From assembly GCA_016935075.1 (NCBI GenBank), contig JAFGRP010000091.1, forward strand, positions 1 to 37,353: a stretch of 37,353 nt of DNA, in the 5' to 3' direction. Source of the DNA: Deltaproteobacteria bacterium. Its GTDB lineage: Bacteria; Desulfobacterota; Syntrophia; Syntrophales; UBA5619. The notes beneath the pieces are model-generated. The model made no database searches. It saw only the letters and a program-made list of their open reading frames with translations, and was not told the origin of the DNA. Each line of letters begins with the position of its first letter. The stretch's first letter is position 1. Below, piece by piece: positions 17,671 through 37,201 of this stretch. A program made the position numbers and the translations under genes.

Positions 17671-18768
17671 TCAGACAACAATGCCTTTGTATGATGCGTA
17701 AGCTTTGATCATCTCTTTACGATCAAAGATTGTTGCAATAAGAGCCGTTCGGATCCACATGCCATTGCGCATCTGACGCCAGTAGACTGCCCGCGGGTCG
17801 TCATCCACATCCGTAGAAATTTCGCTCCTTCGGGGCAATGGATGGAGGATTACAGCACTCTTTTTCAGACGTTTTAGATCATTGCCGGTAAAGGAATATT
17901 TGCTGATGTCGCGTTCATTTCTTTTTCCGGCCTTTTGGGTATCCCATTCATCTTGGATCCGTGTCATATAAATGGCGTCAGCCTCTGGAATTAAAGACTT
18001 GAAATCATCGATTCGTTGATACATTATTTTTTTTTGGTCCAGCATGGCCAAGATGTCTTCCGAAATCTGCAGATCTTTTGGAGCCGCAAAAATCTGCTTT
18101 ACATCTCGATAAGCCGTCAGTAACCAAGCGAGTGAACGAACCGTGCGGCCACGAAGCAAGTCGCCGGCAAAAAGGATTCTTTTCCCGTCAATACCGCCAT
18201 TGCCTTCAAAACTCCTTTGCAGCGTATAAATATCCAAGAGAGCCTGAGTTGGGTGCTGGTCTTTCCCCGAACCGGCATTGATAATGGGTATGGGGCGTTC
18301 CGAGTTGGATAAAACCCAGGCCATTCTTTCTGCAAGACCTCCCACCTCGCTGCGCATGATGATCAGATCGAAATAGGAGCTAAAGGTCCGAACGGAATCT
18401 TCCTTGGATTCTCCCTTGAATTCGCTTGAAGTGGCCGTGTCACGTACTTCCCCGATGGATATACCCAGAATCTGACAGGCTGCGCAAAAGGACAGAAAAG
18501 TACGGCTGCTGGGCTGCGAGAAGTACAGCATGGCCCGCTTATGGGACAACAGATCCTTTAAAAATTTTATGCCCTCTTCCGTTTTGGCGATACGGCGTAT
18601 GATGGTGGCCAGCATTCCCAACTCATCCATCCGAGATCGATCAAATTGCTGGGCAATCATGATATGATAGAGCCTGCCGGCCTCATTGAAATAGTGCGCT
18701 TTTTCCGTCAGGGACAGAGACTCATATTTCTTCCAGGAAATTCTCATTAATGTCGGTTCGTCTTTCAT
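17671..18768 (-). CDS. Aspartate carbamoyltransferase-like transcarbamylase
   Basis: FSQPSSRTFLSF (variant of STRTR), SSEFKGESKEDSV 80s-loop-like segment, NAGSGKDQHPTQALLDIYTL, GDLLRGRTVRSL, ADAIYMTRIQDEW, VILHPLPRRSEISTDVDDDPRAVYWRQMRNGMWIRTALI. Confidence 0.88.
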   Translation of the reverse strand: MKDEPTLMRISWKKYESLSLTEKAHYFNEAGRLYHIMIAQQFDRSRMDELGMLATIIRRIAKTEEGIKFLKDLLSHKRAMLYFSQPSSRTFLSFCAACQILGISIGEVRDTATSSEFKGESKEDSVRTFSSYFDLIIMRSEVGGLAERMAWVLSNSERPIPIINAGSGKDQHPTQALLDIYTLQRSFEGNGGIDGKRILFAGDLLRGRTVRSLAWLLTAYRDVKQIFAAPKDLQISEDILAMLDQKKIMYQRIDDFKSLIPEADAIYMTRIQDEWDTQKAGKRNERDISKYSFTGNDLKRLKKSAVILHPLPRRSEISTDVDDDPRAVYWRQMRNGMWIRTALIATIFDRKEMIKAYASYKGIVV

Positions 18769-18781
18769 TTTTTACCCCCTC

Positions 18782-19771
18782 TTAAGTGAGTGTGGCAACC
18801 ATAACCGCCTTGATGGTATGCATCCGATTCTCTGCTTGATCAAAAACACGGGAAAAAGACGATTCGAAAACCTCGTCTGTAACTTCCATCGCCCCTATCT
18901 CACGCGTAACATCAGTAAGGTTATCATGAAACGCCGGCAGACAGTGAAGAAATATCACTTGGTCGGTATCGGTGCGACCCGTTAAACGCATAAGATCCAT
19001 TGTGACTTGATAAGGTTGCAAAAGCTTCCGTCGGTTTTCGAATTTCACTTCTTCTCCCATTGATACCCATACATCGGTATATATTACGTTGGCTCCTTGG
19101 ACTGCTTCCCGAGGTTCATGTAAGATCCGCACCGATCCGCCCGTTTCAGCTGCAAACCCCTCAGCTTCCTCAAGAAGATCCCGGTCCGGTAAGAGTTCGG
19201 GCGGTGTGCAATTGACGAAATGCATCCCCATTTTTACACAGCCTATCGTTAACGAGTTCGCCACATTGTTGCGTCCGTCGCCCATATACACGACGGTCAA
19301 TCCCTTCAACAGGCCAAAATGTTCCTTGATGGTCAAAAGATCTGCAAAAGTCTGGGTCGGGTGGGCCATATCAGTGAGGGCATTCCAAACTGGAATGCCT
19401 GAATAGTAGGCAAGCTGTTCTGCCGTATCGTGCCGATAACCCCGAAAGGCAATACCGTCAAACATACGCCCCAGAACGCGTGCCGAATCCGGCAACGATT
19501 CTTTCTTGACAAAATGAATATCGCTCAAGTTCAAATAATCCGTGTGAGCTCCTTCATCGGCAGCAGCAACAGTGAAAGCACAGCGTGTGCGCGTCGATGA
19601 TTTTTCGAAAATCATCACAATGTTTTTTCGTTTAAGAAGGTTGCCGCGCAGGCCCCGTTTCTTTTTATTCTTAAGCTGTTCAGCGATATGGATTAAATAT
19701 TCAATTTCCTCCGGGGTCAATTGCTTGACAGTAAGAATACTTTTACCTTTCAACGTTGAATTTTTTTTCAT
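18782..19771 (-). CDS. argF/arcB-like: Ornithine carbamoyltransferase
   Basis: EKSSTRTRCAFTVAAADEGAHTDYL, DMAHPTQTFADLLTIKEHFG, YTDVWVSMGEE, FLHCLPAFHDN, EVTDEVFESSFSRVFDQAENRMHTIKAVMVATLT. Confidence 0.93.
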   Translation of the reverse strand: MKKNSTLKGKSILTVKQLTPEEIEYLIHIAEQLKNKKKRGLRGNLLKRKNIVMIFEKSSTRTRCAFTVAAADEGAHTDYLNLSDIHFVKKESLPDSARVLGRMFDGIAFRGYRHDTAEQLAYYSGIPVWNALTDMAHPTQTFADLLTIKEHFGLLKGLTVVYMGDGRNNVANSLTIGCVKMGMHFVNCTPPELLPDRDLLEEAEGFAAETGGSVRILHEPREAVQGANVIYTDVWVSMGEEVKFENRRKLLQPYQVTMDLMRLTGRTDTDQVIFLHCLPAFHDNLTDVTREIGAMEVTDEVFESSFSRVFDQAENRMHTIKAVMVATLT

Positions 19772-19964: not shown

Positions 19965-20762
19965 CTACAATTCCAATTTCTTGGCCCTGAAGGCCCTCAG
20001 GTAGTTCATGCAGTAGCTGTCCCTGCCCGCCATGGCCTCCGCGACGATGATGTTCGCCATCATACGCCGGTCCAGGGGATTGATGATGGCCCCGTTGAGC
20101 CCGCGGGAAATTGCCATGGCCATGAAAATCTGGTTGACGAATTGCCGCCCCGGCAAGCCGTAGGAGATATTGGACAAGCCGCACAACACATTCACCCCGG
20201 GAAAGGCGTCCCTGACCAGCTCAATGGCCTTCAGAAAGGCTGTGCCGAAGGTTTGGTTCACCGAAATGGGCTGGACCAGAGGATCCACGTAAATGTTGCC
20301 CATCGGAACGTTGCGGTTGACCAGCTTGTTGATCAACCGGTCCGCAATGTTCAGGCGATCTTCAGCCGTCTCCGGCATGCCCCTGTCGCCCATGCACAAA
20401 GCCACAACCTTGTAATCCGTGCCCGCAATCAGGGGGATCATCTTCTCGTACCGCTTCGTCTCCAGCGAAATGGAATTGATCATGGGCGTCCCGCGGTGAA
20501 TAGCCAGAGCCGCCTCGATGGCCTTCGGATTCGGACTGTCAATGGAACAGGGTCCATCGACCACCGCCTGAACGACTTGGACGAGCCACATGAGGTACTC
20601 CGCTTCCTTTTCCACAAAAATGCCGGCGTTCATATCCAGAAAGTGCGCCCCGGCTTCGTGCTCTTGCATCGCAATCGCCTGAATCGCCTCTGCATCCTGC
20701 TTCTCGATGGCCTCCCTGATCGCTTTGCGGCTCGCATTGATCAGTTCTCCCACTACCAGCAT
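19965..20762 (-). CDS. AcsE/MtgA/MtrH-type methyltetrahydrofolate:corrinoid methyltransferase
   Basis: MLVVGELINASRKAIREAIEKQDAEAIQAIAMQEHEAGAHFLDMNAGIFVEKE...CSIDSPNPKAIEAAL...PMINSISLE...YVDPLVQPIS...VLCGLSNISYGLPGRQFVNQIFMAMAISRGLNGAIINPLD: pterin-binding MeTr pattern. Start trimmed from ORF 20885. Confidence 0.9.
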   Translation of the reverse strand: MLVVGELINASRKAIREAIEKQDAEAIQAIAMQEHEAGAHFLDMNAGIFVEKEAEYLMWLVQVVQAVVDGPCSIDSPNPKAIEAALAIHRGTPMINSISLETKRYEKMIPLIAGTDYKVVALCMGDRGMPETAEDRLNIADRLINKLVNRNVPMGNIYVDPLVQPISVNQTFGTAFLKAIELVRDAFPGVNVLCGLSNISYGLPGRQFVNQIFMAMAISRGLNGAIINPLDRRMMANIIVAEAMAGRDSYCMNYLRAFRAKKLEL

Positions 20763-20823
20763 CGCCGTTCCTCCTTCCAATACATCATTATCATATAGAA
20801 GACATTCACTCCTCTCCCATGCC

Positions 20824-21840
20824 CTACCGCTTTCCGAAAGAAGAGACCGAGCGGATCCAGGTGCCTGTTTTCCCAGCAAGGGCATCCATAATGCAGGTCG
20901 GCAGGGTAATCACAGTCGGATTGCCCGTGGCCTCCGTGAATTCGACAGCCGCTTCAATTTTAGGTCCCATGCTGCCCGGCGCGAAATGGCCTTCTGCCAG
21001 GAACTGTTTCGCCTCGGGGACTGTCATCATGTCCAAGAGTTTTTCGTCGGGTTTCTTGAAGTTCAGGGCCACCTTTTCAATGGCTGTTGTAATGATCAGC
21101 ATGTCCGCCTTCAGGAGCCGGGCGAGAAGACTTGTGGCAAGGTCCTTGTCAATGACGGCGTCCACGGCTTTCAAGATCCCGTTTTCTTCAATGACGGGAA
21201 CGCCTCCACCGCCGCAGGTGATCAGAGGGAAACCCCACTCGGCAAGCATAGCGATAACCGGCTCCTCGATGAGCTTCCGGGGTCGGGGAGAAGGAACGAC
21301 GCGCCGGTACCCCCGGCCGGCGTCTTCTTTGACGGTCCATCCCTCCTTGTCGATTTTATCCCGAACCTGATCCGCCGTGAAGAACTGCCCTATGGGCTTT
21401 GTCGGATTCGCAAAGGCCGGATCATCCTTGTCGACCAGGATCTGGGAGATCACCGTGGCGGGCGTCAGGGAAAAGCCCCGCTCCCGGAGAGCGTTGGACA
21501 AGAACTGTTGGAGCATGAAGCCCATGCCGCCCTGCGTATCGGCGCTGCAAATATACAGAGGAAGGGGGTATAGAACGTTGATTGCCGCTTCTACCCTGCG
21601 CAGCAGGTTGCCGACCTGGGGACCATTGCCGTGGGTAATCACAACACGATATCCAGATGCGATAAGGTCAGCAATGTAATTCATGCTTTCCTGGGCATTT
21701 TCAAACTGCTCCGGGATATTCCCTTCTTGATTTTCCCTGGAGATGGCATTACCTCCAAGGGCAACGACAACCAGAGGCGGTGGCTTTCCCCCTAAAGGTA
21801 CTTCCATATCACCCATTCGACCATTCATTATCCCGTCCAT
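20824..21840 (-). CDS. arcC: Carbamate kinase
   Basis: VVVALGGNAISRENQEGN, YRVVITHGNGPQVGNLL, PLPLYICSADTQGGMGFMLQQ, GYRRVVPSPRPRKLIE, VITCGGGGVPVIEENG, AVIDKDLATSLLARLLKADMLIITTAIEKVALNF. Exact start uncertain (21840 chosen by RBS). Confidence 0.93.
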   Translation of the reverse strand: MDGIMNGRMGDMEVPLGGKPPPLVVVALGGNAISRENQEGNIPEQFENAQESMNYIADLIASGYRVVITHGNGPQVGNLLRRVEAAINVLYPLPLYICSADTQGGMGFMLQQFLSNALRERGFSLTPATVISQILVDKDDPAFANPTKPIGQFFTADQVRDKIDKEGWTVKEDAGRGYRRVVPSPRPRKLIEEPVIAMLAEWGFPLITCGGGGVPVIEENGILKAVDAVIDKDLATSLLARLLKADMLIITTAIEKVALNFKKPDEKLLDMMTVPEAKQFLAEGHFAPGSMGPKIEAAVEFTEATGNPTVITLPTCIMDALAGKTGTWIRSVSSFGKR

Positions 21841-21990
21841 TCTTTCCATTCCTTTTTTGCCCTGCCTATGCTCCAACCAAATCACCCGCTATTGCTGTTA
21901 CACTACTGTGCGCCGCTAAGAGACACCAAACGCAACAAGGAACGTTTCGGCCTAATCGTTGACCGTGCGATAAGAAAGGGAACACTGACG

Positions 21991-22079: not shown

Positions 22080-22784
22080 TCAGTCATTGGTCTGACTTCC
22101 GATAATGATCGGGCTATCCAGTGGCGGTTTCTTGCCGCAAGCAACCAGTTGTCGGCACAGCTCGACAGCCTCTGTAGCCAGCCTTGCATATCCGTCGGAC
22201 TTAATCTTCCCCGCCCACTCAGGCGTCACGGGTCCGCCACCGACGACCACGTAGTAGTTCTGCCTTAATCCCATGTCGTTCAGATAGGCAACCAAGTCTT
22301 TCTGATAGGGAAGACTCGTCGTCAGCAAACTGGACAACCCTATGATGGTCGCTTTCACCTCTTCGGCCTTTTTCACGAAGTTAAGGGGAGGTACATCCAC
22401 ACCCAAATCATAAACCTCGAAACCGGACGCGCCCAGGACAGCCCCTACCAAGTTCTTGCCAATGTCATGCACATCGCCAGTCATCGTTCCGAGAACGACT
22501 TTCCCCAGACTGGCACTCGCGCTTTGCTTCTTGGTCATGTGAGGCGCCAATTGTTCGAGGCAGGCTTTCCCGACGTCGGCGGCCAACATCAGTTCCGGCA
22601 GATACACCTCAAAGTCCTGGAACAACTGACCGATGCGCGCCATTCCCCCTGCGACGCCAACCTGCATGATTTCCACCGGGTCCACGCCTGCATTGAGCAG
22701 GGAATCAACAGCGGTTTTGGCCTTCTCTGCACTTCCCTCCACAACAGCTTCAGTCAATTTTGAGAGCAATTCTTGATTGGACAT
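22080..22784 (-). CDS. Methyltransferase corrinoid protein (MtmC/MtbC/MttC family)
   Basis: B12-binding motifs GTMTGDVHDIGKNLVGAVLGASGFEVYDLGVDVPP, SSLLTTSL, VVGGGPVTPEWAGKIKSDGYA; N-terminal helical cap domain. Confidence 0.95.
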   Translation of the reverse strand: MSNQELLSKLTEAVVEGSAEKAKTAVDSLLNAGVDPVEIMQVGVAGGMARIGQLFQDFEVYLPELMLAADVGKACLEQLAPHMTKKQSASASLGKVVLGTMTGDVHDIGKNLVGAVLGASGFEVYDLGVDVPPLNFVKKAEEVKATIIGLSSLLTTSLPYQKDLVAYLNDMGLRQNYYVVVGGGPVTPEWAGKIKSDGYARLATEAVELCRQLVACGKKPPLDSPIIIGSQTND

Positions 22785-22816: not shown

Positions 22817-24205
22817 TTAGAACCGATGTACGGGAATACCCAGCTCAATGGCCTCGGCCTTCACTTCACGATAAATTGCATGCCACTCCTCTTTGGGCGT
22901 CAGCGTTTTGATGTCGTAGCACTCCTGGAAAGGATAGCCCTTGGGCGGGTTAGGCAATCTTTCTTCATACTTTGGAATAACCTTTTTGGCGATCTCGTTC
23001 GCCTCTGCGCGAGTCATTCCGGCGCAGGCCTTGATGACCTCAGCCGACCACTTGCATTCCAGCGGGCTGAGGTGGTTTTGATACTTGCCGGCCGCTGAAC
23101 GCGGTCCCAGCCCGATGCTCACTCCAGAAACGGACAGGGTCATCGCTGTGACCATCGATTCGTACAGCAACATCTTCGTGCCCGGCCCGGCGGTGACATT
23201 CAGGGATGTGTTTTTGAGCACCGGTGAATTGCGGCTCAACGCCTGCAGGAACGTGCTGAGGACCCACTGGGCGTGTCTACCGGTGTTGCCCATATAACGC
23301 AGGTCATACGGAGAGCAACCGCCGTATGTAGCCTGATGGACAAAATAATGAAGCAGGGAGTAGGCAATGGCAACCAGAACGACACCTTCCGGACCACCTG
23401 CGTACCCGCCAATCATAGGCAGTCCGCTCGAGTAGACCGGGGCCCCGCAGTTGACCGCATGCACCACTTTGTGCAGGCAGTGGTAACTGGTTTTCAATTC
23501 GGAGGGTCCCAGTACGATAACAATATCCTTTTTTGAGGATAACCCACCAGGAACACCAAATCCGCCAAGTTGGCCGAAAGCAGTAACACTACTGATTACA
23601 CCCGTCACCGGCATGCCCGGACGGCCCGCACGCCATAGCGCTTCGTTCGTCAGCCGGGCGTTTAGGTAGCCGACCAATGTTTCATATGGGGTTTGCGATC
23701 GAACCTCATGACCGAAGACGGTTTCAAGGGAACCTCCCTGTAGGACGTCGATCTCGCGGTTCTCCACGATTCCTTGCATAACAACCACCCACAGGTCTTC
23801 GGAAACGGTGATGCCCAGCGGGGATTTAAACAACGGCTTCCGCGGATCCTCCGGTTTTCGCGGGTACATGATCACGCGGTCGCGCCCCTCACCCAGCACC
23901 AGTTCCGGGGGTATTTTATGCAGGATATCCCAGAGCTCCTGGGCGCTCATCAGGATACGACGCTCGGTATCAATGCAGAGCATGCCCAACTCGAGCGCCA
24001 AATCGAAGCCGGCCTTGAAGAAACGATCGGCCAGGGCATCATCTGTATTGACGGGCTCCTGCGGGTTGCAGGTACGCAGCAGATTATGCGCTTTGAGCTG
24101 TTTAGCAATAGCGCTGGGAATAACCTTGGAATCCCAGTCCTTTACGGCACAGACTGGCCCATTGTGCGCCCGGTCCAATACTTCCAACACGCTTGTTACT
24201 GACAT
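22817..24205 (-). CDS. MtmB-family (monomethylamine methyltransferase) homolog lacking pyrrolysine
   Basis: Co-linear with remembered MtmB: FFKAGFDLALELGMLCIDTERRI, LVLGEGRDRV, SPLGITVSEDLWV, RAGRPGMPVTG, LPMIGGYAGGPEGVVLV, PFQECYDIKTLTPKEEW. No in-frame TAG. Start placed at ATG 24205 by RBS spacing. Confidence 0.85.
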   Translation of the reverse strand: MSVTSVLEVLDRAHNGPVCAVKDWDSKVIPSAIAKQLKAHNLLRTCNPQEPVNTDDALADRFFKAGFDLALELGMLCIDTERRILMSAQELWDILHKIPPELVLGEGRDRVIMYPRKPEDPRKPLFKSPLGITVSEDLWVVVMQGIVENREIDVLQGGSLETVFGHEVRSQTPYETLVGYLNARLTNEALWRAGRPGMPVTGVISSVTAFGQLGGFGVPGGLSSKKDIVIVLGPSELKTSYHCLHKVVHAVNCGAPVYSSGLPMIGGYAGGPEGVVLVAIAYSLLHYFVHQATYGGCSPYDLRYMGNTGRHAQWVLSTFLQALSRNSPVLKNTSLNVTAGPGTKMLLYESMVTAMTLSVSGVSIGLGPRSAAGKYQNHLSPLECKWSAEVIKACAGMTRAEANEIAKKVIPKYEERLPNPPKGYPFQECYDIKTLTPKEEWHAIYREVKAEAIELGIPVHRF

Positions 24206-24310
24206 AAACATTACTCCTTTCTTAATGGTGTTTTATTTTCCTCACCTTTTTTCCGTTAAACTGTTTATAAAACCGTCTTTTCGTATGCCCTTGGTTTGCA
24301 GTAAGAAATT

Positions 24311-25816
24311 CTACGCATCCTCTGCAGGAATACGACGTAAACGACTGATTTTGGGAGAGAGCGCCAGCAGGAAGACGACCAGGGCGATCATTAAATTGAT
24401 CAGGCATATCGGTCTTGTCAGAAAGATCATTCCGCTGCCTCCCGACATCAGCAGAGATTGACGCAGCGAATTATCGATGAGGGGTCCAAGAACCATGGCA
24501 AGGGCCAGCGGTGCGCCGTCATACTTGAATTTTTTTAAAAGATAACCAAAGATACCGAAAATGAACATCAGCTCTGTTTCACCGATGTTGTTGTTGAGGC
24601 TGTAGGATCCGATGATGCAAAAAACAAGAATGAGCGGAAACAGGATCGGGTAAGGAATTTTGAGGATTTTAACCCAAAGGCCGATCAGCGGAAGGTTAAG
24701 CACAAGAAGCATCACGTTTCCGATGTACATGCTGGAAACCGTACCCCAGAAGATATCGGGATGCTTCGCAATCAACTGCGGTCCGGGCGCCACACCATAA
24801 ATCATCAGCGCCCCAAGCATGATGGCCATAACCACATTTGAAGGAATGCCAAGGGTCAGAAGGGGAATAAAGGCCCCTGCCACAGCGGAATTGTTGGACG
24901 CCTCGGGCCCGGCAACCCCCTCGATCGCTCCCTTTCCGAACTCCTCGGGATGTTTGGAGATCCTCTTTTCAATCCCGTAACTTACGAATGAAGCGATGAT
25001 CGCACCCCCTCCAGGCAGAATCCCGAGGAAAAACCCTGTGACGGAACCTCGAACGATCGGCCAGGCCGATCTTTTCCATTCCATGATATTGGGCAGAAGT
25101 CCTTTGATTTTGGTCTTAAAAACCTCCTGATCCGTCAAACTTTTTTCGATATTCAAGAAAACCTCTGAAACCCCGAAAAGACCCATAACCACCGGGACAA
25201 GTCCCACCCCATCAATCAGGAAATCGATCCCCAAGGTATATCTGGGCTGTGCGGTGATCAGATCCATCCCGACGTTTCCGATAACGATACCGAGGCTTGC
25301 CATGATGAGCGATTTCAACATGGAGCCACTCGATAGAAACGTCAGGATAATGAGGCCCAGAATCATCAACGTAAAGTATTCCGGCGGACCAAACCGGAGT
25401 GCAATAGAAGCCAGGGGAGGGGCCACGAAGGCGAGGCCGACCACGCCCAGGGTCCCCGCAATAAAGGACGCGAAGGCAGAAATCCCCAGGGCGGCGCCCG
25501 CTCTGCCGTTCCTCGCCATCTGGTATCCGTCGAGACAGGTAACGACCGAGGCCACCTCTCCGGGGATATTGACCAGGATGGACGTCGTTGACCCTCCATA
25601 CATGACGCCGTAATATATCCCGGCAAGCATGATGATCGACGCGACAGGCGGCACATGAAAGGTTGCCGGCAGAAGAAGGGAAATTGCAGCCACGGGCCCA
25701 ATCCCCGGGAGAACCCCCACAAGGGTTCCAATGAGAACACCCAGAAAACAGAAGAGGAGATTCATCGGCTCAACGGCAATACCCAAACCATATATGATGT
25801 GCTGCAATATATCCAT
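24311..25816 (-). CDS. Tripartite tricarboxylate transporter large membrane subunit (TctA family)
   Basis: LIGTLVGVLPGIGPVAAISLLLPATFHVPPVASIIMLAGIYYGVMYGGSTTSILVNIPGEVASVVTCLDGYQMARNGRAG is the hallmark TctA segment. Confidence 0.95.
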   Translation of the reverse strand: MDILQHIIYGLGIAVEPMNLLFCFLGVLIGTLVGVLPGIGPVAAISLLLPATFHVPPVASIIMLAGIYYGVMYGGSTTSILVNIPGEVASVVTCLDGYQMARNGRAGAALGISAFASFIAGTLGVVGLAFVAPPLASIALRFGPPEYFTLMILGLIILTFLSSGSMLKSLIMASLGIVIGNVGMDLITAQPRYTLGIDFLIDGVGLVPVVMGLFGVSEVFLNIEKSLTDQEVFKTKIKGLLPNIMEWKRSAWPIVRGSVTGFFLGILPGGGAIIASFVSYGIEKRISKHPEEFGKGAIEGVAGPEASNNSAVAGAFIPLLTLGIPSNVVMAIMLGALMIYGVAPGPQLIAKHPDIFWGTVSSMYIGNVMLLVLNLPLIGLWVKILKIPYPILFPLILVFCIIGSYSLNNNIGETELMFIFGIFGYLLKKFKYDGAPLALAMVLGPLIDNSLRQSLLMSGGSGMIFLTRPICLINLMIALVVFLLALSPKISRLRRIPAEDA

Positions 25817-25830
25817 AAATGGCTGACCCC

Positions 25831-26295
25831 TTAAATAATGCCTTCAAAGATGCCTTTGGGAAGCTGGGTTCTGAGCAATAATGCAAAAATCATATAAGAA
25901 ACGATCGTAACAACGACAGACATCACAAGAATGATTCTCAGGTTATAAGAAGATTTCAGTCGAAAGAGAACAAAAAGGAGGATAAACGTACTGAGGACAA
26001 AACCAACAGGTTTAAATGCCAGAATATAGACAAGGAGGAGGAGGATCGTGAAAGCAACGTGTTTTATATCAAAACCTACCCACAGATCCCGAAGTCCGCT
26101 CACGTTGTCATGATCTTTCCCCGATGAAATAAACAGGACTGCAGAAAGCAGGGATATGATAATGCCGGGGAAGAAAGTGATGAAACCCGCCCCGGGCTGA
26201 CTCAGAGACCCGATCCCGTATTTCAGTGAACTCAGGGTGATCGCAATCCCGACGATAAACCAGAAAAGGCTCGAATATTGGTCGATGGTTTTCAT
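25831..26295 (-). CDS. Tripartite tricarboxylate transporter small membrane subunit (TctB family)
   Basis: 154 aa, 4-TM pattern, GIGSLSQPGAGFITFFPGIII, adjacent to TctA. Confidence 0.88.
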   Translation of the reverse strand: MKTIDQYSSLFWFIVGIAITLSSLKYGIGSLSQPGAGFITFFPGIIISLLSAVLFISSGKDHDNVSGLRDLWVGFDIKHVAFTILLLLVYILAFKPVGFVLSTFILLFVLFRLKSSYNLRIILVMSVVVTIVSYMIFALLLRTQLPKGIFEGII

Positions 26296-26329
26296 GTGAA
26301 TACCGACATACTCCCCCGATGATAAAACT

Positions 26330-26369
26330 CTTCGAGTAGTCCCGAGGTTTGCCTCAGGACTACTCGAAG
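26330..26369 (-). terminator. Long perfect-arm hairpin between tctC and tctB
   Basis: CTTCGAGTAGTCC-c-GAGG-tttg-CCTC-a-GGACTACTCGAAG, followed on the minus strand by AGTTTTATC. Confidence 0.65.
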
Positions 26370-26400
26370 ATAACTTACTCCTGACCCGACCGATCTTTTC

Positions 26401-27378
26401 TCACTTCTTGAAGATCCCAATGCCAAGATTCATAAAAACCTTTTTGTTTGCCGCATAATCTTCTTTGATGAGCCTGATCACCTCATCGCTGTTCTTGATG
26501 AACAGGGGATATCCCATTTTCTTCAGAAGCGCCTTGAATTCATCTGTTTCAGCAGCCTGGCTTAATGCCCGGCCGAGCACGTTCAAAACGTCCTTGGGGG
26601 TGCCGGCAGGGGCATAGAGAACCGTAATCGCCCTCACCGCAAAATCGTACCCCTTCTCTATAAGCGTGGGAACGTTCGGATATTCGGGATTCCGCACCTC
26701 ATCCTCGACGACGAGGAGTCGCATCTGGCCCGAATCCACATACGGTTTCCATTGCTGGGTCTGGGAAACCACCTCCACATGCCCGCCCAAAACGGAGGTG
26801 ACGGTTTCCGCAACGTTCGTGAATGGAACGTGTATCCATTTGATATTCTCCTGCATGGCGATGAATTCCATGGCCACGTGTCCTCCGGTGCCGACGCCTG
26901 TTGTGCTGTACCGGATCTTGCCCGGATTTTTCTTGGCATAGGCAACCAGGTCCTCGAAAGTCTTCCAGGGGGAATCGCTCTTCACAGCGATGCCAAAGTT
27001 TGAGCGGGTATAGGCCATAACAGGAACCAGATCCTTAAACGGGTCCTCTGCATTGTAGGGAACGGCCCGAAGCAGAGGGATGCGGCTCAAGGCGGCGGTA
27101 CTGCTGTTGGCAATGGTATAGCCATCCGGCTTTTCATTCTTCAGTTTTCCGAGAACCAATGTCCCTCCCGCTCCGGGAAAGTTTGTACAAACAATCGGCT
27201 GATTCAATATCTTGGCGGCAAGATTCGCCTGAGCCCTCTGGTGTATATCGGTCCCGCCTCCAGCCCCCCATCCTATCCAGAGGTTGATGGGCCTGGAGGG
27301 AAAAGTCTGACCCATCGCACTGCCCCCAACAAACATCAGAAGAACCGCCATCATAACGACCCAATATCTCCTCTTCAT
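26401..27378 (-). CDS. Tripartite tricarboxylate transporter substrate-binding protein (TctC/Bug family)
   Basis: Signal peptide MKRRYWVVMMAVLLMFVGGSAMGQ; TFPSRPINLWIGWGAGGGTDIHQRAQA, IVCTNFPGAGGTLVLGKLKNEKPDGYTI. Confidence 0.93.
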   Translation of the reverse strand: MKRRYWVVMMAVLLMFVGGSAMGQTFPSRPINLWIGWGAGGGTDIHQRAQANLAAKILNQPIVCTNFPGAGGTLVLGKLKNEKPDGYTIANSSTAALSRIPLLRAVPYNAEDPFKDLVPVMAYTRSNFGIAVKSDSPWKTFEDLVAYAKKNPGKIRYSTTGVGTGGHVAMEFIAMQENIKWIHVPFTNVAETVTSVLGGHVEVVSQTQQWKPYVDSGQMRLLVVEDEVRNPEYPNVPTLIEKGYDFAVRAITVLYAPAGTPKDVLNVLGRALSQAAETDEFKALLKKMGYPLFIKNSDEVIRLIKEDYAANKKVFMNLGIGIFKK

Positions 27379-27472
27379 AACCAATCTCCTTTCTCGGCTA
27401 TCTCTGCTTATGAAACAGCCTTTCAAGATGTTGCCCCATTGTTTACCCTCCCCATAAAAGGCTTCCGATGCA

Positions 27473-29605
27473 TCACGACTTGACGGTGATCAATGCATCG
27501 AGAGCACTTCCACCCCTGCCTTCCTCGAACACCACGAAAGGATTAATATCGACCTCGGAAAGGATATCCCGGTGCTCCACGGCAAATGTTGAAAGGTTCA
27601 AAAGGTTCCGAACGATTGCCCCCACATCCGCTTTTTTGGCTCCCCTGATGCCTTCAAAAAGCTTTGCCGCCTTGATATTCATAACCATTGAAAGGGCCTC
27701 TCTCTCCACAATCGGAGGGATCCTTAACGAGAAATCCCCCAGCAACTCCACGAAAATCCCGCCCAATCCGAACATGAGCACCGGTCCTATCTGAGGATCA
27801 TTCTTCACTCCCAGAATCGTTTCAATGCCCTTGGGCGCCATCTTCTGAACCAGGATGCCCTGAATCTCCGCATTCGGTTTAAAGATGGTCGCATTCTCCA
27901 ATATCTCGTCGTAAGCCCGCATCACCTCCTCTTTCGAACCGATGTTTATGCGAATGGCCTGAGCTTCTGTTTTATGCGGAATATCGGGAGATACGACCTT
28001 AAGAACAACGGGGTAGCCCAGCTTCTCCGATGCTTCAATCGACTTGTCCCGAGAACCGGCCAGTATTTCTTCGATACAGTCCACGCCGCAGGAAGACAGG
28101 ATCTTTTTTGAATCATATTCTGAAAGAACACCGTCCTTCGCATTCCATTCCTTCCCGGAATAGGCCTTGCTCGACACACGCTCAGCCGTCCCCGTGTTCC
28201 TGTTCCTGAGAAATTCAGAGTACCGGGTTGCGTGACCCAGAGCCAAAACGCTTTTTTGCAGTCCCTGGAGCACGGGGATATCCGTATCCCGGAACATTTG
28301 GCAAATTTTCGGATGGAAGGTATTCGATGTATAGGTCATGATCACAAAAGATTTGTCCGATCCCTTCTGCCACACCTCCTTTGCGCAGTTCGCCATTCCC
28401 TCATACAACCGGTTATCATACTCGGTCGTCCCGCAGGAAGAATTCAGGCCGACGGCCACCAGGTCGACATTGGAATCGCGGGAGAGATGTTCGATGCCCC
28501 CCTTGAAAATGCCCAAATCTCCGGCCGCGGATCCCGTGCAATCCAGTGGATTGGATGGCGTTCCGAAGGATGGGAGGATCTGTCGAAGATTTCGCACTGT
28601 TTCCGGGCTGAGATCGGCCAGTTGAAGCCTGTTTTCCTCGGCGAGATCCGAAATCAGACCGCTGGCTCCGCCCGAAATGGTCACCACACCCACCCGGCTG
28701 CCGACATTCCTCTTTATCTTTTCGAGGGCAATCGTCGTCTCGATCAGTTCGTCCAGGTCCCTGACACGGATAACCCCCTTTTGCCTGAACAAGGCTTCGA
28801 AAATCTCATCCGGGCCGGCCAGGGATCCGGTGTGAGCCAGCGCCGCCTTTTGGGCCTTCTGGGATCTGCCCACCTTGACCACCACAATGGGTTTTTCTTT
28901 TTCCCGGGCATGTTCGGCTGCGCGGATGAATGACTCGACATCCCTTAATCCTTCAACAAAGGTCGCGATCACCCGCGTATGTTCATCGTCGATCATGTAT
29001 TCAATGTAATCGCTCCCGGAAACAACCGTTTCGTTGCCGCTCGAAATGAGAAAACTCAATCCGACGCTCCGGTGGGAGAACGGATCGGTGATCGAATGCG
29101 TGATGGCCCCGCTCTGCATGACCAGACCGATGCGTCCGGGGATCAGCGGTTCATAAAGCGGTCCGGAAAAGGCGGCAACCCGCCCATGAAAATTGACGAA
29201 ACCGTAACAGTTCGGCCCGCAGACCGCCATGTTAGCTTCCCCGGCGATGCTTCGAATATCGTTTTCGAGAGCTTTCCCGGGCTCTCCTGTTTCACCGAAT
29301 CCGCTGGAGGGAATCACGGCCGCCCTTGCCCCCGTATCCGCCGCCTCCTTCAAAACCTTGAGGACATGGGGTCTGGCCAGCGCGATCATCACCATATCGA
29401 CGGTCTCGCCGATCGCCGTCACGCTGGGGTAACATCTCATCCTCTTGATTTCCTCGTATTTCGGGTTGACGGGATAGATCTTGCCGGCAAAGTTGAGCTT
29501 CGTCAGATTGTCGATAACCCGGCCACCCAGGCTTCTGCCCTGGGAAACGCCGACCACCGCGATCGATTTCGGAGCAAGCAGCGGTTTTAAATCCTTCTTC
29601 TCCAT
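27473..29605 (-). CDS. ADP-forming acyl/acetyl-CoA synthetase (fused alpha-beta)
   Basis: LLAPKSIAVVGVSQGRSLGGRVIDNLTKLNFAGKIYPVNPKYEEI; AHTGSLAGPDEIFEALFRQKGVIRV; C-terminal ATP-grasp YPVVLKVVSPDIPHKTEAQAIRINIGSKEEV...EVDINPFVVFEEG. Confidence 0.93.
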   Translation of the reverse strand: MEKKDLKPLLAPKSIAVVGVSQGRSLGGRVIDNLTKLNFAGKIYPVNPKYEEIKRMRCYPSVTAIGETVDMVMIALARPHVLKVLKEAADTGARAAVIPSSGFGETGEPGKALENDIRSIAGEANMAVCGPNCYGFVNFHGRVAAFSGPLYEPLIPGRIGLVMQSGAITHSITDPFSHRSVGLSFLISSGNETVVSGSDYIEYMIDDEHTRVIATFVEGLRDVESFIRAAEHAREKEKPIVVVKVGRSQKAQKAALAHTGSLAGPDEIFEALFRQKGVIRVRDLDELIETTIALEKIKRNVGSRVGVVTISGGASGLISDLAEENRLQLADLSPETVRNLRQILPSFGTPSNPLDCTGSAAGDLGIFKGGIEHLSRDSNVDLVAVGLNSSCGTTEYDNRLYEGMANCAKEVWQKGSDKSFVIMTYTSNTFHPKICQMFRDTDIPVLQGLQKSVLALGHATRYSEFLRNRNTGTAERVSSKAYSGKEWNAKDGVLSEYDSKKILSSCGVDCIEEILAGSRDKSIEASEKLGYPVVLKVVSPDIPHKTEAQAIRINIGSKEEVMRAYDEILENATIFKPNAEIQGILVQKMAPKGIETILGVKNDPQIGPVLMFGLGGIFVELLGDFSLRIPPIVEREALSMVMNIKAAKLFEGIRGAKKADVGAIVRNLLNLSTFAVEHRDILSEVDINPFVVFEEGRGGSALDALITVKS

Positions 29606-29626
29606 GACTTCCCCCCACATCCGGTA

Positions 29627-30436
29627 TTAGATATCGAAAGGCTTGTCCCGGGCTTCGAGAAACGCTTTCATTCCCTGCGTTCGGATGATTTCATAAAGCG
29701 CAAGCTTTTCCGGAAGATTGGCATTCAACATGAAGGTATCCGTGTCCCGATGCGCGTCCAGGGCGCTTTTGAATCCCATGATCTCATACGTTCTCTTGAT
29801 GCTCCGCTTCGTCACTTTCTGTGTCAGAGGATGGATCAGAGAGCATTTCTTTGCCGTTCTCCATGTTTCATGTTCGAGTTGATCGGCAGGCACGACTTTG
29901 CTGACCATCCCGAGACGCTCGGCTTCGACCGCATCGATGGTTTCTCCCGTATAGTACATTTCGTGAAGCCGTTTCGCATTGTTCACAACCCACGGCAGAA
30001 TGAGCAGGGGTGAGAGGCTCATATGCCTCATTTCGGGTTCCCCAAAACGCGCTTTTTCCGAGGCAATGGTGATGTCGCATATCATCGCGATGTTGGAGCC
30101 GGCTGCAATGGCATGGCCATTCACGGATGCAATCACCGGTTTGCTCAGGTCCCAAATTCTGAGGAACGTCAAGTAGTTTTTTTTCAGAATGCCGTACCAA
30201 ACCTCGGCTCCTGGCGGTTTCTCTCCGGGAGTGCCCATGTCGATCCCGGCGGAAAAAGCCTTCCCCGCACCGGTCAGTATTGCGACCCTGATATCGTTGT
30301 CCTGTTCGATTTCATCAAAGAGATGGTTCAGTCCATCGATCATCGTAGGGGTAAGGGTGTTGAGCTTTTCCGGACGGTTGAATGTAATTTTCGCGATCCT
30401 ATCCTTCTTTCCGAACAATAATTCATTGCTTTGCAT
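29627..30436 (-). CDS. Crotonase-fold protein (enoyl-CoA hydratase/isomerase family)
   Basis: KITFNRPEKLNTLTPTMIDGLNHLFDEIEQDNDIRVAILTGAGKAFSAGID; SVNGHAIAAGSNIAMICDITIASEKARFGEPE. ATG 30436 with GGAGG RBS preferred over the GTG at 30451. Confidence 0.9.
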   Translation of the reverse strand: MQSNELLFGKKDRIAKITFNRPEKLNTLTPTMIDGLNHLFDEIEQDNDIRVAILTGAGKAFSAGIDMGTPGEKPPGAEVWYGILKKNYLTFLRIWDLSKPVIASVNGHAIAAGSNIAMICDITIASEKARFGEPEMRHMSLSPLLILPWVVNNAKRLHEMYYTGETIDAVEAERLGMVSKVVPADQLEHETWRTAKKCSLIHPLTQKVTKRSIKRTYEIMGFKSALDAHRDTDTFMLNANLPEKLALYEIIRTQGMKAFLEARDKPFDI

Positions 30437-30469
30437 CTTAAAAACCTCCACTTCGTATTATATTGTCTC

Positions 30470-30533: not shown

Positions 30534-31517
30534 TTATCTCATCACCAAAGCCAGGACCGCCTTCTGCGCATGCAGCCGGTTCTCCCCCTGGTCGTATACG
30601 ACGGACATGGGCCCGTCGATCACCTCGTTGGCCACCTCTTGTCCGCGGTCAGCGGGAAGCGGGTGCATATAATTGGCAACCTTGTTCGCGATCTCGAAGT
30701 GCTTCGGTTTGATGCGCCAGTCTTCCCGGAACTGGGCGCGGTAGGCATTGTCATCCTTTTTGCTCATCTTCAGACTGCCCCAGCTTTTGGCATAGATGAC
30801 ATCCGCGCCGTTGCACGCCTTGTATATATCTTTGACCACAGACAACTTGCCTCCGGATTGTTTGTAAGCTTTTCGGGCAAATGACATATATGCCTCGTCA
30901 AGTTCATAGCCTTCGGGATGCGCGATGGTAAGATCCATGCCGAGAAGGCTCGCAGCCGCCAGCATGGACTGGGCCACGCCGGGGGATTTCACCCTCTCTG
31001 CATAAGCCCATGACATCACTATCTTCTTTCTCCGCCAATCGGCGCCCAGCTTTTCGATGATCGTCATCAGGTCCGCCATCGTCTGGCATGGATGCTCCTT
31101 GTCATCCAGACCGTTAATGATGGGAATGGTCGCATTGGCCGCCAGTGTAGCCACGATATCTCTCGCCATGCCATATTTCTCCAGGTCATAGACCCGGATC
31201 ATCAGTGCATCGAGATAACGACTCATGATCCTTGCCGTATCCTCCCACGTCTCTTTATGGGCAATCTGTGTCGTTTCCTCGGTATAGTATTGGGCGTGTC
31301 CTCCCAGCTGCGTCATCCCCGTTTCAAAGGATATCCGCGTTCGCGTGGAAGGCTTCGTAAACAACATCCCGAGACTCTTGCCCTCCAATACCTCGTGGCG
31401 CTGGCCTCGGGCGAGCATCCGCTTGAAATCGAAACCCGTCTCCAAGATCGTTTCCAGCTCTTCGCCCGTAAAATCCATCATGGATACAAAGTGTCTTCCC
31501 TTCATGTTCGTCTTCAT
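30534..31517 (-). CDS. YgeW/N-acetylornithine-type transcarbamylase (substrate unknown)
   Basis: KPSTRTRISFETGMTQLGGHAQYY, DDKEHPCQTMADLMTI, KKIVMSWAYAERVKSPGVAQSMLAAASLLGMDLTIAHPEGYEL, ADVIYAKSWGSL, YMHPLPADRGQEVANEVIDGPMSVVYDQGENRLHAQKAVLALVM. Confidence 0.88.
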   Translation of the reverse strand: MKTNMKGRHFVSMMDFTGEELETILETGFDFKRMLARGQRHEVLEGKSLGMLFTKPSTRTRISFETGMTQLGGHAQYYTEETTQIAHKETWEDTARIMSRYLDALMIRVYDLEKYGMARDIVATLAANATIPIINGLDDKEHPCQTMADLMTIIEKLGADWRRKKIVMSWAYAERVKSPGVAQSMLAAASLLGMDLTIAHPEGYELDEAYMSFARKAYKQSGGKLSVVKDIYKACNGADVIYAKSWGSLKMSKKDDNAYRAQFREDWRIKPKHFEIANKVANYMHPLPADRGQEVANEVIDGPMSVVYDQGENRLHAQKAVLALVMR

Positions 31518-31577
31518 ATGATTCACCCTCAAAATAATTTTTTGTTTCGGCCCATTTGATGATTCTTACGGACCACT

Positions 31578-32963
31578 TCAATGCTGCACAGGTGTGACCA
31601 ATGCACCCATACCGGGATCCCCACGAATATCCCCGTTCTCGAACACGACTCGTCCCCGGCACAGGGTGATTCGGATATGGTGACGGATCGTCCATCCCTC
31701 GTAGACCTTGCAGGACTGCCGCGCTTTCGTCCACATGGAATCCAGAATGACCGGACGGGGAGCGCCCGGTTCGACGACCACCAGATCGGCGTCGGACCCC
31801 TCCCGGAGCGCTCCCTTGCGGGGATAAATCCCGAGAAGCCGGGCCGGATTTTCGCTGAAATGCCTCACGACCTGCTCATATTCGAGTTCGCCCGACAACG
31901 CCTTCTCCAGCATAAGCGGGAGGCTCAGTTCGAGAGCAGGAATTCCATCCGGTGCAAGCCAAATGTTTTCCAGACCTCTTTCTTTCTCCTCCAATCGGTA
32001 GGGTGCATGATCGCTGCTGAGGATATCAATCCAGCCGTTATGGAATCGCTGAAAGAGTCCCTCGCGCAAGGCTTCGGAACGGATCGGCGGCTTGACCCGC
32101 GCAAAAGGGCCGTGGGAACGAACGACATCCTGAGAAAGCAGCAGATATTGGGGGCAGGTCTCAGCATAGATCTTGGACCCTTCAGCCTTCGCCTCCCTTA
32201 TCCTATCCACCGCTTCAGGGGTGCTTACATGACAGATCAGCACCCGCGATTCTGTGCGCTTCTGTGCCCGTATGACACGCTCGACCGCAATGAGTTCCGT
32301 CCGGGGAGGGCGGGACATGGCAAATGCATCGAGGCCCTTCACACTTGAAGCCTGTACGGCGCGCGTCTCACCGGCGATGGTCTCCGGATCCTCGGCGTGA
32401 ACGGCAACGAACAGGCCTTCTTTACCCGCTGCACGCAACACCTGCTCCAGCGATATTTCATCGGGGGCGCACAGACCGTAGAACTCCCGTTCGCGGCCTT
32501 CAGGGGGGGGCATGAGAAACGTCTTGAATCCTACAACGCCGGAGTCGGCAAGCGCAGGGATCGCATCCAGATTGTCGGCCCCGGCTCCACCATAAAAACA
32601 GAAATCAATCCTCGCATGTTCGGCGGCGTGGCGGACACGTGTGCGAAGAGCATCGGCATCGGACGCAGGGGGGTCACTCACCGGCATTTCCGCAAGGGTG
32701 GTTACTCCGCCCGCGGCGGCCGCCGCCGTAGCCGATTCGAAATCTTCCCGGTGAGCAAAGCTGGGAGCGCGCACGTGCACATGGGAATCCACCATGCCGG
32801 GCATGACCAAACATCCATGGGCATCAATGGTGCGCCTCGATGCCGGAATATCATGCCCGGGACCGATGTAGCTGATGGTCTGACCTTGGACACCGACGGC
32901 CCCAACAAATGAACCTTCGGCTGTCACAATGAGACCACCCACAATATTCACGTCATTGGTCAT
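31578..32963 (-). CDS. Cyclic amidohydrolase (allantoinase/dihydropyrimidinase/dihydroorotase superfamily)
   Basis: LVMPGMVDSHVHVRAPSFAHREDFESATAAAAAGGVTTLAEMPVSDPPA, VGFKTFL (likely carbamylated Lys), VLICHVSTPEAVD, RVKPPIRSEALREGLFQRFHNGWIDILSSDHAPY. Confidence 0.93.
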   Translation of the reverse strand: MTNDVNIVGGLIVTAEGSFVGAVGVQGQTISYIGPGHDIPASRRTIDAHGCLVMPGMVDSHVHVRAPSFAHREDFESATAAAAAGGVTTLAEMPVSDPPASDADALRTRVRHAAEHARIDFCFYGGAGADNLDAIPALADSGVVGFKTFLMPPPEGREREFYGLCAPDEISLEQVLRAAGKEGLFVAVHAEDPETIAGETRAVQASSVKGLDAFAMSRPPRTELIAVERVIRAQKRTESRVLICHVSTPEAVDRIREAKAEGSKIYAETCPQYLLLSQDVVRSHGPFARVKPPIRSEALREGLFQRFHNGWIDILSSDHAPYRLEEKERGLENIWLAPDGIPALELSLPLMLEKALSGELEYEQVVRHFSENPARLLGIYPRKGALREGSDADLVVVEPGAPRPVILDSMWTKARQSCKVYEGWTIRHHIRITLCRGRVVFENGDIRGDPGMGALVTPVQH

Positions 32964-32990
32964 TGAATCCACCGTTCCCCTGCTCCCGGT

Positions 32991-34259
32991 CTATCTCGCC
33001 GAGAGGTACGCATGCATTGAACGGGCGGCCCTTTTCCCCTGGGCAACGGCCTCAACAACCGTCTGCCGGCTGCTGATGCAGTCCCCTCCGGCAAAAAACT
33101 TGCTGCTCCCTATGCGTAGCGTTTCCTTGTCCACGGTTCCTTGACAGGCAACCGCCACGTCGTTGAGCATAGAATTTCTGTCCTTGCCGAGAGACCATAT
33201 CACTGCATTGGCAGGGTAGATGAAATCGGTGCCCGAAACAGCCGAGAAACTCCTTCTGTCCTGTCCGCATTCCCCGGACGGCTCTGTCCTGGCCAGCGTG
33301 ATCGCTTGAAGCTCACCGCTTCCATTCAGGGTAGAGGGCTCCGTTTGCCACAGAAACTCAACCCCTTCCTTCATCGCCTTGATGAACTCCGCCTCGTCAG
33401 CGGGCATTTCGCGACGGGATCGTCGGTAGGAGACGATCGATCGGATCGCTCCGAGACGAAGAGCAGTCCGAGCACAGTCCATGGCCGTGTTGCCTCCCCC
33501 TACGGTAACACAGACCCCCAACAGCTTCCCTATCTGGCCTTCCTTGACCATCTTAAGAAACGTCTCCGCATCATACTGACCTCTCAAATTTTCCCCAGCC
33601 ACCTGAGCCCGGCGGGCTTGTGCCAATCCCATTCCTAAAAACACCGCATCGAATTGAGCAGACAAGACATTCTCTATGAATTCCCGTGATACAGAGACCC
33701 CGTGATGGATCATGATCTCCTCTGTACACAGCTCCCGGAAATCGCGGTCGATCACTTCGTTTGGGACCTTGAAGTTCGGAATCTCACGCGTGACCGTACC
33801 CCCCAGGAACTTCTCCTGCTCGAACATTTCCAATTGATAGCCTAAAAGACGAAGTTCATGGGCACAGCTCAAGCCTGCAGGTCCCGCACCGACAATTGCG
33901 ATTTTCTTGTTCACCTTGTCAGTTAGAACCTCGTATCCGGAGTACTCGGCATTATCGCAGGCAAATTTCTGAAGACGCGCGATGGGAATAGGATCCCCCA
34001 ATTTTCTAAACGTGCAATGTTTCTCGCAGAGTTCCTCGGAGGGACACACATAGGCACATATTCCACCAAGGCAATTGTCCCTCTTGATAACACGCTTCGC
34101 CCCTTTGATGTCGCCCCATCGAAGCATGCGTATGAACTGGGGAACATCAACACGGGATGGACACGCCTCCTTACAAGGGGCTTCGTAGCAGAACAGGCAT
34201 CTGCTTGCCTCTCTCGTCACCCACTGCAACTGCTGGCGATCTTCTTTCATTGCTCTCAT
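32991..34259 (-). CDS. preT: PreT-like NAD(P)-FAD oxidoreductase subunit (GltD/DPD N-terminal type)
   Basis: CLFCYEAPCKEACPSRVDVPQFIRMLRWGDIKGAKRVI, CLGGICAYVCPSEELCEKHCTF, IAIVGAGPAGLSCAHELRLLGYQLEMFEQEKFLGGTV, VTVGGGNTAMDCARTALRLGA. ATGA overlap with the upstream preA-like gene. Confidence 0.9.
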   Translation of the reverse strand: MRAMKEDRQQLQWVTREASRCLFCYEAPCKEACPSRVDVPQFIRMLRWGDIKGAKRVIKRDNCLGGICAYVCPSEELCEKHCTFRKLGDPIPIARLQKFACDNAEYSGYEVLTDKVNKKIAIVGAGPAGLSCAHELRLLGYQLEMFEQEKFLGGTVTREIPNFKVPNEVIDRDFRELCTEEIMIHHGVSVSREFIENVLSAQFDAVFLGMGLAQARRAQVAGENLRGQYDAETFLKMVKEGQIGKLLGVCVTVGGGNTAMDCARTALRLGAIRSIVSYRRSRREMPADEAEFIKAMKEGVEFLWQTEPSTLNGSGELQAITLARTEPSGECGQDRRSFSAVSGTDFIYPANAVIWSLGKDRNSMLNDVAVACQGTVDKETLRIGSSKFFAGGDCISSRQTVVEAVAQGKRAARSMHAYLSAR

Positions 34260-35464
34260 CCCTTACTTTCTTTCCGTTTAAGCTCCATGCAGCCTTCAAC
34301 AGGGCAGATCCCTTTACAAAGGCCGCACCCGTCACATTTTTCTTCATCCACGAATGCGATGCGATCCTTCCCCATGCTGATAGCCTGATAACCGCTGTCC
34401 CTGCATGCAATCACACAAAGTCCGCACCCGACGCACTGGGTCCTATCGACATGGCTGGCCAACCGATAATCCCGGCTGAGTTCCCGATGGGGCATGATAC
34501 TGGGTAGTCCCAGCCCCACGAAATCGGAAATATGGGCGAACTCCATCTTCTCCATGTAGTCCGCAAGCCCATGGGTCAGGTCCTCGATGATGCGGTAGCC
34601 GTACTGCATCACCGCAGAACAGATTTGTACTGTGGACGCACCAACCAAGATATACTGAACAGTGTCCTCCCAGTTCGCAATCCCTCCGATACCCGAAATA
34701 GGAATTTTCACATTCTGGGCGATCTGCGCAACGCACCTCAACCCGACCGGCCTAATCATGGCGCCGGACAGTCCGCTGAATGCACTTTTACCATCCACCC
34801 GGGGATACGGAGTAAAGGTATATACGTCCATCCCGTTGAGACAATTAAGCGTGTTAATGGCCGAGATGGCATCAGCACCTGCTTCCTTTGCAGCCTTTGC
34901 CTTTTGGGGGATGTTCTCGACCATGGCAGGAAGCTTCACCATTATTGGCAGCGTCACGGTCCGGCGAATCCACCCGACCACCTCCTGAATGAGCCCCACA
35001 CTGCTCCCTATGGTTGCTCCACCACCACCTTCCGCCATCCCATGGGAACACGAAAAATTCAGTTCAAATCCATCCACTCCCGCTTGGGCAAATCGCCGCG
35101 CCACCTCTTTCCACTGAGATTCGACCAGCCCTTCTGTATGCAGCAAACTCGCAAGCAGGAGATGCTCCGGGCAGTTCTTTTTGATACGCACGACGTCCTC
35201 AAGCCATTCGTCAATCGGCTTTTGGGCACCGAGTTCAAAATTGGTAAATCCTATGACGCGGCCGTCCTGCTTGATCGCATGGATTCTTGGATTGACATTT
35301 TTATATTTGGTGTAATCGTATGTCAGGGTCTTGATGACCGCCCCCCCCCATCCCTGGTCAAAGGCACGCTCGATCATCTCACCCGTGTTTGTCGGAGGCG
35401 CCGAAGCGAGTATGAAAGGATTGGGACAGCGGAATCCAGCAAAATCGACTTCTATCGATGCCAT
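34256..35464 (-). CDS. preA: PreA-like dihydropyrimidine dehydrogenase catalytic subunit (DHOD-like plus 2[4Fe-4S])
   Basis: VDFAGFRCPNPFILASAPPTNTGEMIERAFDQGWGGAVIKTL, FELNFSCSHGMAEGGGG, SGIGGIANWEDTVQYILVGASTVQICSAVM, CVGCGLCVIACRDSGYQAIS, CDGCGLCKGICPVEGCMEL. Confidence 0.92.
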   Translation of the reverse strand: MASIEVDFAGFRCPNPFILASAPPTNTGEMIERAFDQGWGGAVIKTLTYDYTKYKNVNPRIHAIKQDGRVIGFTNFELGAQKPIDEWLEDVVRIKKNCPEHLLLASLLHTEGLVESQWKEVARRFAQAGVDGFELNFSCSHGMAEGGGGATIGSSVGLIQEVVGWIRRTVTLPIMVKLPAMVENIPQKAKAAKEAGADAISAINTLNCLNGMDVYTFTPYPRVDGKSAFSGLSGAMIRPVGLRCVAQIAQNVKIPISGIGGIANWEDTVQYILVGASTVQICSAVMQYGYRIIEDLTHGLADYMEKMEFAHISDFVGLGLPSIMPHRELSRDYRLASHVDRTQCVGCGLCVIACRDSGYQAISMGKDRIAFVDEEKCDGCGLCKGICPVEGCMELKRKESKG

Positions 35465-36978: not shown

Positions 36979-37201
36979 CGTTTTTCTCCTCTTCATGTTC
37001 ATAAAGTAATAAAGTTCAATCTATGCTTTCCGTCCGACTGCCCGGACATTGAAGCCAAGTAATACATGTGCAAAGAGTTTTCTCGTTCGTTCAATGAAAT
37101 AAGGTCACCTTCAACGCTGTTACTATGGATATGTCGCCAATCTTCATTCAAGCGGTACGACAGATTTTTCTTAACCTGAATATCGTTCATGACTCCACAT
37201 T

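Follow-up and report, generated by a model that had tools for sequence, protein, structure and literature searches.

How does a member of the MtmB family of methyltransferases manage without pyrrolysine (Pyl), and on what substrate might it act when its gene lies in a bacterium beside genes of ureide-degrading type? The question is raised by a gene at 22817..24205 on the minus strand of the window, the whole stretch of 37,353 nucleotides that was analysed. Its reading frame runs from 24211 to 22817 if taken from the first ATG (464 aa) and from 24205 to 22817 if taken from the second; the Shine–Dalgarno sequence AAAGGAG is better spaced for the second, and a start at the earlier in-frame ATG at 24211 is possible. 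The protein scores 282.9 bits against PF05369, for which the gathering score is 25 bits, and matches profile positions 2-449 of 450, that is, over the full length, so it belongs to the family. The only relatives found in the PDB are the MtmB1 structures of Methanosarcina barkeri (1l2q/1nth and 1tv2), recovered by phmmer with an E-value of 4e-64. An earlier note on this DNA had read the protein by eye as an MtmB homolog co-linear from end to end, and both searches bear this out. A pseudogene is ruled out, as the frame is intact and full length.

The position that carries Pyl in the methylamine enzyme is occupied by threonine. In the phmmer alignment with MtmB1 the vicinity of this column is free of gaps, with GRPGMGV-X-GPETSLSAQGN standing against GRPGMPV-T-GVISSVTAFGQ, and MAFFT alignments with natural TAG-containing MtmBs again place Thr at the Pyl202 column. 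The earlier note had identified this residue and its codon, ACG (23603..23605 in plus coordinates, read on the minus strand), and every alignment made agrees with it. The mtmB frame contains no in-frame TAG; a pyrrolysine MtmB has one at position 202. Four further positions, E229, E259, Q333 and Y335 in Pyl-enzyme numbering, the residues around Pyl202, are invariant in eight of eight Pyl MtmBs and are I, S, S and N in the window protein. As the latter retains 46% of all Pyl-invariant columns, a change at four selected positions is not surprising taken alone; it is nonetheless the pattern that disappearance of the Pyl/methylamine site would produce, and the replacement of all four accords with the probable change of substrate suggested in the earlier note. 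An AlphaFold model of the protein, made with a five-sequence alignment, reached a pLDDT of 39 and was set aside, so the pocket is read from the alignment alone.

The implication of the same note that a non-Pyl MtmB is unusual in itself is not supported. Such proteins form a large and known group: a tree of 1,061 MtmBs published in 2026 has large non-Pyl parts of unknown function, and one non-Pyl member that has been assayed, MtqB, was assigned to tetramethylammonium and choline, which is stated to be the first function shown (PMC13044021). PF05369 was found here in 13 of the 396 genomes of the window's phylum, in all but one case without TAG, and in 2 of the 156 genomes of its class. Non-Pyl MtmBs occur as well in Thermoproteota and, beside Pyl copies, in many methanogens, and they are present in most of the MtmB-bearing genomes searched. 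A single TAG-containing MtmB was found in the phylum (L002/L054; G356:C233), and its assembly shows it as two pieces separated by a break.

Within this company the window protein is rather solitary. Its closest relatives in a protein-level GTDB scan are 33% identical, the best identity to any sampled sequence is 36%, and no ortholog was found in the collections searched (the 396 genomes of the phylum, the 156 of the class, a GTDB-wide scan and plasmids, the last with tblastn, which returned nothing). In a tree of 44 rows it stands on a long branch among the non-Pyl enzymes, without a supported sister, and its grouping with one sequence (L016) is flagged as possible long-branch attraction. It falls outside the Pyl clade in this tree, again on that long branch, and forcing it into the clade gave a p-AU of 0.074 (>0.05). 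Judged by sequence, it is a deep, isolated lineage and a new variant of a Pyl-free class already known.

Candidate partners for the enzyme are close at hand. The gene 32 bp downstream, which has its own Shine–Dalgarno sequence, encodes the putative cognate corrinoid protein (22080..22784, minus strand), which is MtmC/MtgC-like and shows PF02310, PF02607 and the cobalamin motif GDVHDIGKN; it scores 204 bits as MtgC and 187 bits as pyl_corrinoid, both below cut-off. Across the MtmB loci sampled, no other neighbour is as constant as a linked corrinoid gene, which most of them carry. About 1.2 kb beyond the corrinoid gene, past a carbamate kinase gene, lies one for a methyltetrahydrofolate:corrinoid methyltransferase (MT-II; 19965..20885, minus strand, with a start probably near 20765), which scores 345 bits against NF005719 (cut-off 259). 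The nearest structures of this MT-II are 4o0q/4o1e/4o1f from D. hafniense, two of which serve as MT-II with methyl-THF and tetrahydrofolate (THF) in a recent study (PMC13222342). Genes for the substrate-activating methyltransferase (MT-I), the corrinoid protein and MT-II are therefore found together at the locus. Elsewhere in the genome there are two RACo-type activases and CdhC/ACS, so both an activase and a THF/acetyl-CoA route are present. Another genome of the same genus (G408) has a different non-Pyl MtmB with a corrinoid protein, a related MT-II (71%) and a methylene-THF reductase, and this speaks for a THF route in the genus. The linked corrinoid and MT-II genes, the G408 counterpart, the activases and CdhC/ACS together give good support to a THF-linked three-component corrinoid methyltransferase system, in which MtmB is very probably the MT-I. 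A non-Pyl homologue of MttB (L104; G000:C29), accompanied by a corrinoid protein of its own as well as a DctM-type transporter and a class-III aminotransferase, may be a second corrinoid demethylation system of the same genome.

The genes around this system, all on the minus strand, offer the clue to its substrate. Beginning from the end of the contig, a gene for an MmgE/PrpD family protein (35587..37002; PF03972/PF19305), the last whole one, is followed by those for a PreA-like dihydropyrimidine dehydrogenase subunit (34256..35464; NF006183 460 bits, cut-off 335; nearest PDB entry mammalian DPD), a PreT-like NAD(P)/FAD/FeS subunit (32991..34259; Fer4_20 and Pyr_redox_2) and a cyclic amidohydrolase of hydantoinase/allantoinase/dihydroorotase type (31578..32972), which is nearest in the PDB to the L-hydantoinase 1gkr (271 bits) and reaches 346 bits with the allantoinase profile, just under the cut-off. 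Next comes an OTC-fold carbamoyltransferase (30534..31532; TIGR00658 305 bits) with an altered substrate loop; as read from the sequence, GSLKMS replaces the SMG loop and HPLP replaces HCLP, so it is probably not an ornithine enzyme. An enoyl-CoA hydratase family protein (29627..30451; PF00378) and an ADP-forming acyl-CoA synthetase (27473..29620) precede a tripartite tricarboxylate-type transporter comprising the substrate-binding protein TctC (26401..27426; PF03401), TctB (25831..26295; PF07331) and TctA (24311..25816; PF01970), after which mtmB begins. A 19-pair hairpin between tctC and tctB (26329-26370, minus strand) could act as an attenuator and reduce expression of whatever follows the binding-protein gene, including mtmB.

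On the far side of mtmB and its corrinoid gene are the carbamate kinase (20824..21885; TIGR00746 369.5 bits, cut-off 358), MT-II, an ornithine carbamoyltransferase in which SMG and HCLP are both present (18782..19771; TIGR00658 405 bits, cut-off 281) and an aspartate carbamoyltransferase-like protein (17671..18768; TIGR00670 231.5 bits, cut-off 237; nearest PDB entry PyrB). The downstream part holds SucCD-like, CitE-like (nearest malyl-CoA lyase), PrpF, FrdA-like and CoA-transferase genes, which points to a dicarboxylate carbon skeleton. No tRNA was found in the 37-kb window. That the contig might have been mis-binned was considered; a DUF748 gene (2608-5586), whose counterpart in a second genome of the family shows 69% identity, supports the bin, without proving it for the operon.

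The series dehydrogenase, cyclic amidohydrolase, carbamoyltransferase is the reaction module by which ureides are processed in pyrimidine and purine pathways; in purine clusters carbamate kinase goes with it (PMC4016543). The reading we prefer is that the MtmB-fold enzyme, independent of Pyl, would bind an N-methylated compound as the substrate-activating MT-I. The methyl group would be taken by cob(I)alamin on the corrinoid protein (22080-22784) and handed by MT-II (19965-20885) to THF, from which it would enter the Wood–Ljungdahl pathway; this direction of transfer, like the pairing of the proteins, we infer. Reduction of the substrate's ring would fall to the PreA/PreT pair and its opening to the hydantoinase, and the carbamoyltransferases and carbamate kinase would recover the carbamoyl group as carbamoyl phosphate and ATP. 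The substrate may then be an N-methylated ureide or cyclic ureide of pyrimidine or hydantoin type, or a compound released from one, an assignment that we favour with less than even confidence. Among the candidates listed in the earlier note, which ranged from N-methyl amino acids to quaternary amines, the N-methylated ureide fits the gene neighbourhood best. The scheme taken whole, a three-component, THF-linked demethylation of a methylated ureide or heterocycle, is put forward just as tentatively.

A comparable neighbourhood exists in a genome of the Thermoproteota (G544; L121, G544:C5:1-20000, with L059), where an MtmB that groups loosely with that of the window has a hydantoinase gene (309 bits), PreA-like and YgeY-like genes, and SsnA-like, creatininase-family and ECF-transporter genes, all no more than 20 kb away. 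The window's hydantoinase and PreA are only about 30% identical to these counterparts, and most of the G544 genes fall short of the NCBIfam equivalog cut-offs, which makes this support no more than suggestive. In the other genomes of the window's class, no counterpart of the hydantoinase was found at E<1e-60, and the link between operon and ureides rests chiefly on one contig as a result; the genome itself is 90.7% complete and 7.9% contaminated. The hairpin between tctC and tctB also counts against the scheme, and the ring-opening and methyltransferase genes could be neighbours without a common pathway.

If they are, the enzyme would act on another N-methyl compound, such as an amino acid, a phosphonate or an imidazole, with the ureide genes as bystanders. 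Non-Pyl MtmBs do lie elsewhere in Hut and aminoethylphosphonate-like clusters, one of them in the same-genus G408, but none of the genes recognised in the 37-kb window is of Hut or phosphonate type, and we regard this alternative as unlikely. A more closely related possibility keeps the ring-opening genes and moves the methyltransferase downstream of them: in a creatinine/N-methylhydantoin pathway the hydantoinase would open N-methylhydantoin, a carbamoyltransferase would free sarcosine, and the MtmB system would demethylate sarcosine, or N-carbamoylsarcosine, the former giving glycine. An L-hydantoinase as the nearest solved structure of the amidohydrolase and an OTC-like enzyme devoid of the ornithine motifs would both suit this route, as would the creatininase-family and hydantoinase genes near the MtmB of G544, and anaerobes that convert N-methylhydantoin to sarcosine are known (PMC4417704). 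It leaves PreA/PreT, TctABC and the aspartate-type carbamoyltransferase unexplained, however, and none of the window's genes was recognised as a creatinine deaminase; both the pathway and the step assigned to MtmB within it appear rather improbable.

The one function that has been assayed for a non-Pyl MtmB, that of MtqB (PMC13044021), raises the case of a demethylase of quaternary amines such as tetramethylammonium or choline, or of betaines. Around the Pyl column the loop is similar to that of three methanogen copies, L094-L096 (GMPxxGxxSSVTxxGQ), which from the published description of the MtqB clade we infer to represent it, and a clade shared with them was not rejected (p-AU 0.20). In the MtqB group a Met, a Cys and aromatic residues are conserved close to the ligand (PMC13044021). 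L094-L096 accordingly show M205, C259, Y333 and F335, whereas the window protein has I, S, S and N there and so seems to lack the sulphur/aromatic pocket that we take to mark the quaternary-amine type. Forcing the window protein together with L077 and L090-L093, the second non-Pyl group of methanogens, was rejected (p-AU 0.0045), and the surroundings show no recognisable betaine or choline genes; we regard a quaternary amine as an improbable substrate. An ordinary monomethylamine methyltransferase that does without Pyl is far less probable than any of these. Methyl transfer from methylamine requires Pyl in the known mechanism, and the four residues taken to surround it have all been replaced, against which can be set the family name and the slight methylamine activity of MtqB (PMC13044021).

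A methylated ureide, the substrate that we prefer for the window enzyme, would be one of several for the family, as other non-Pyl MtmBs keep different company. In three genomes of one family (G375, G299 and G258) MtmB and a corrinoid protein lie amid Hut genes. Family scans of the G375 locus (L040; G375:C85:18001-38000) placed four proteins over the NCBIfam cut-offs, namely urocanase (967 bits), histidine ammonia-lyase (681), imidazolonepropionase (473) and glutamate formimidoyltransferase (412); the loci of the other two (L041 in G299 and L043 in G258) were read by the beginnings of their ORFs. A cyclodeaminase and a TRAP transporter are also among the genes of these clusters. These genes predict that the Hut-linked MtmB is a candidate anaerobic demethylase of N-methylhistidine or hercynine. 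A second MtmB of G375 is again tied to urocanate: at its locus (L055; G375:C229:1-5600) genes for a GntR regulator, urocanase and a corrinoid protein lead directly up to that for MtmB.

Phosphonate-like clusters provide a further setting. Among related non-Pyl MtmBs, one has as neighbours a phnS2-like binding protein, a PbfA-like aminotransferase-fold enzyme and a PhnX-like hydrolase, each scoring below cut-off (L047; G299:C25), another lies with a similar ABC transporter of aminoethylphosphonate type and class-III aminotransferases (L053; G408:C48), and a third near only the hydrolase/regulator part of such a cluster (L046; G279:C57), which hints at N-methyl-aminoethylphosphonate demethylases. 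A different arrangement is seen at L058 (G543:C22), where two MtmB genes stand in tandem and are preceded by genes for an MtaA/MtbA-like methyltransferase, for a BMP-type ABC transporter and for a RACo activase. In the open-access literature no paper was found that ties MtmB to methylhistidine, hydantoin or creatinine, or that links it to Hut or phosphonate genes.

With non-Pyl members in histidine-degradation and phosphonate-like clusters, the family looks like one of varied N-demethylases, and the neighbourhoods yield separate predictions: methylated ureides for the window, N-methylhistidine for the Hut-linked enzymes and N-methyl-aminoethylphosphonate for those in phosphonate-like clusters. 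It is a speculative idea, more doubtful than the scheme for the locus, that a Pyl-free MtmB removes methyl from the amide/imide or ureido nitrogen of a methylated pyrimidine, hydantoin or ureide, in a pathway yielding ATP from carbamoyl phosphate, and that non-Pyl MtmBs more broadly form a diverse set of anaerobic enzymes that N-demethylate methylhistidine, N-methyl-aminoethylphosphonate and methylated ureides. If it is true, the MtmB family would be a broad set of anaerobic N-demethylases in which the pyrrolysine methylamine enzyme is one branch, and this would bear on why pyrrolysine is needed at all.

Among known systems, the MtmB of Methanosarcina (PF05369; 1nth/1l2q) shares its family with the window protein from end to end and likewise has an adjacent corrinoid protein, but it has Pyl202 where Thr is found here and E229/E259/Q333/Y335 where the window has I/S/S/N, and it passes the methyl group to CoM, whereas the type of MT-II would direct that of the window system to THF. 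MtqB of Methanococcoides methylutens Q3c (PMC13044021) is, like the window protein, a non-Pyl MtmB homologue paired with a corrinoid protein. It has Met, Cys and aromatic residues near the ligand, where the window columns, as matched through L094-L096, would be aliphatic or polar, and the window protein differs in being bacterial, apparently THF-linked and set among ureide genes. The general plan of MT-I, corrinoid protein and MT-II leading to THF, free of Pyl, is that of the betaine demethylases MtgB, MtcB, MtpB and MtyB; these non-Pyl enzymes of the MttB superfamily belong to a different family, PF06253, of which the window's genome has one homologue elsewhere (C29). The ureide modules of PMC4016543 resemble the window in having the dehydrogenase, cyclic amidohydrolase, carbamoyltransferase and carbamate kinase families side by side, but, unlike the window, they are without a corrinoid methyltransferase.
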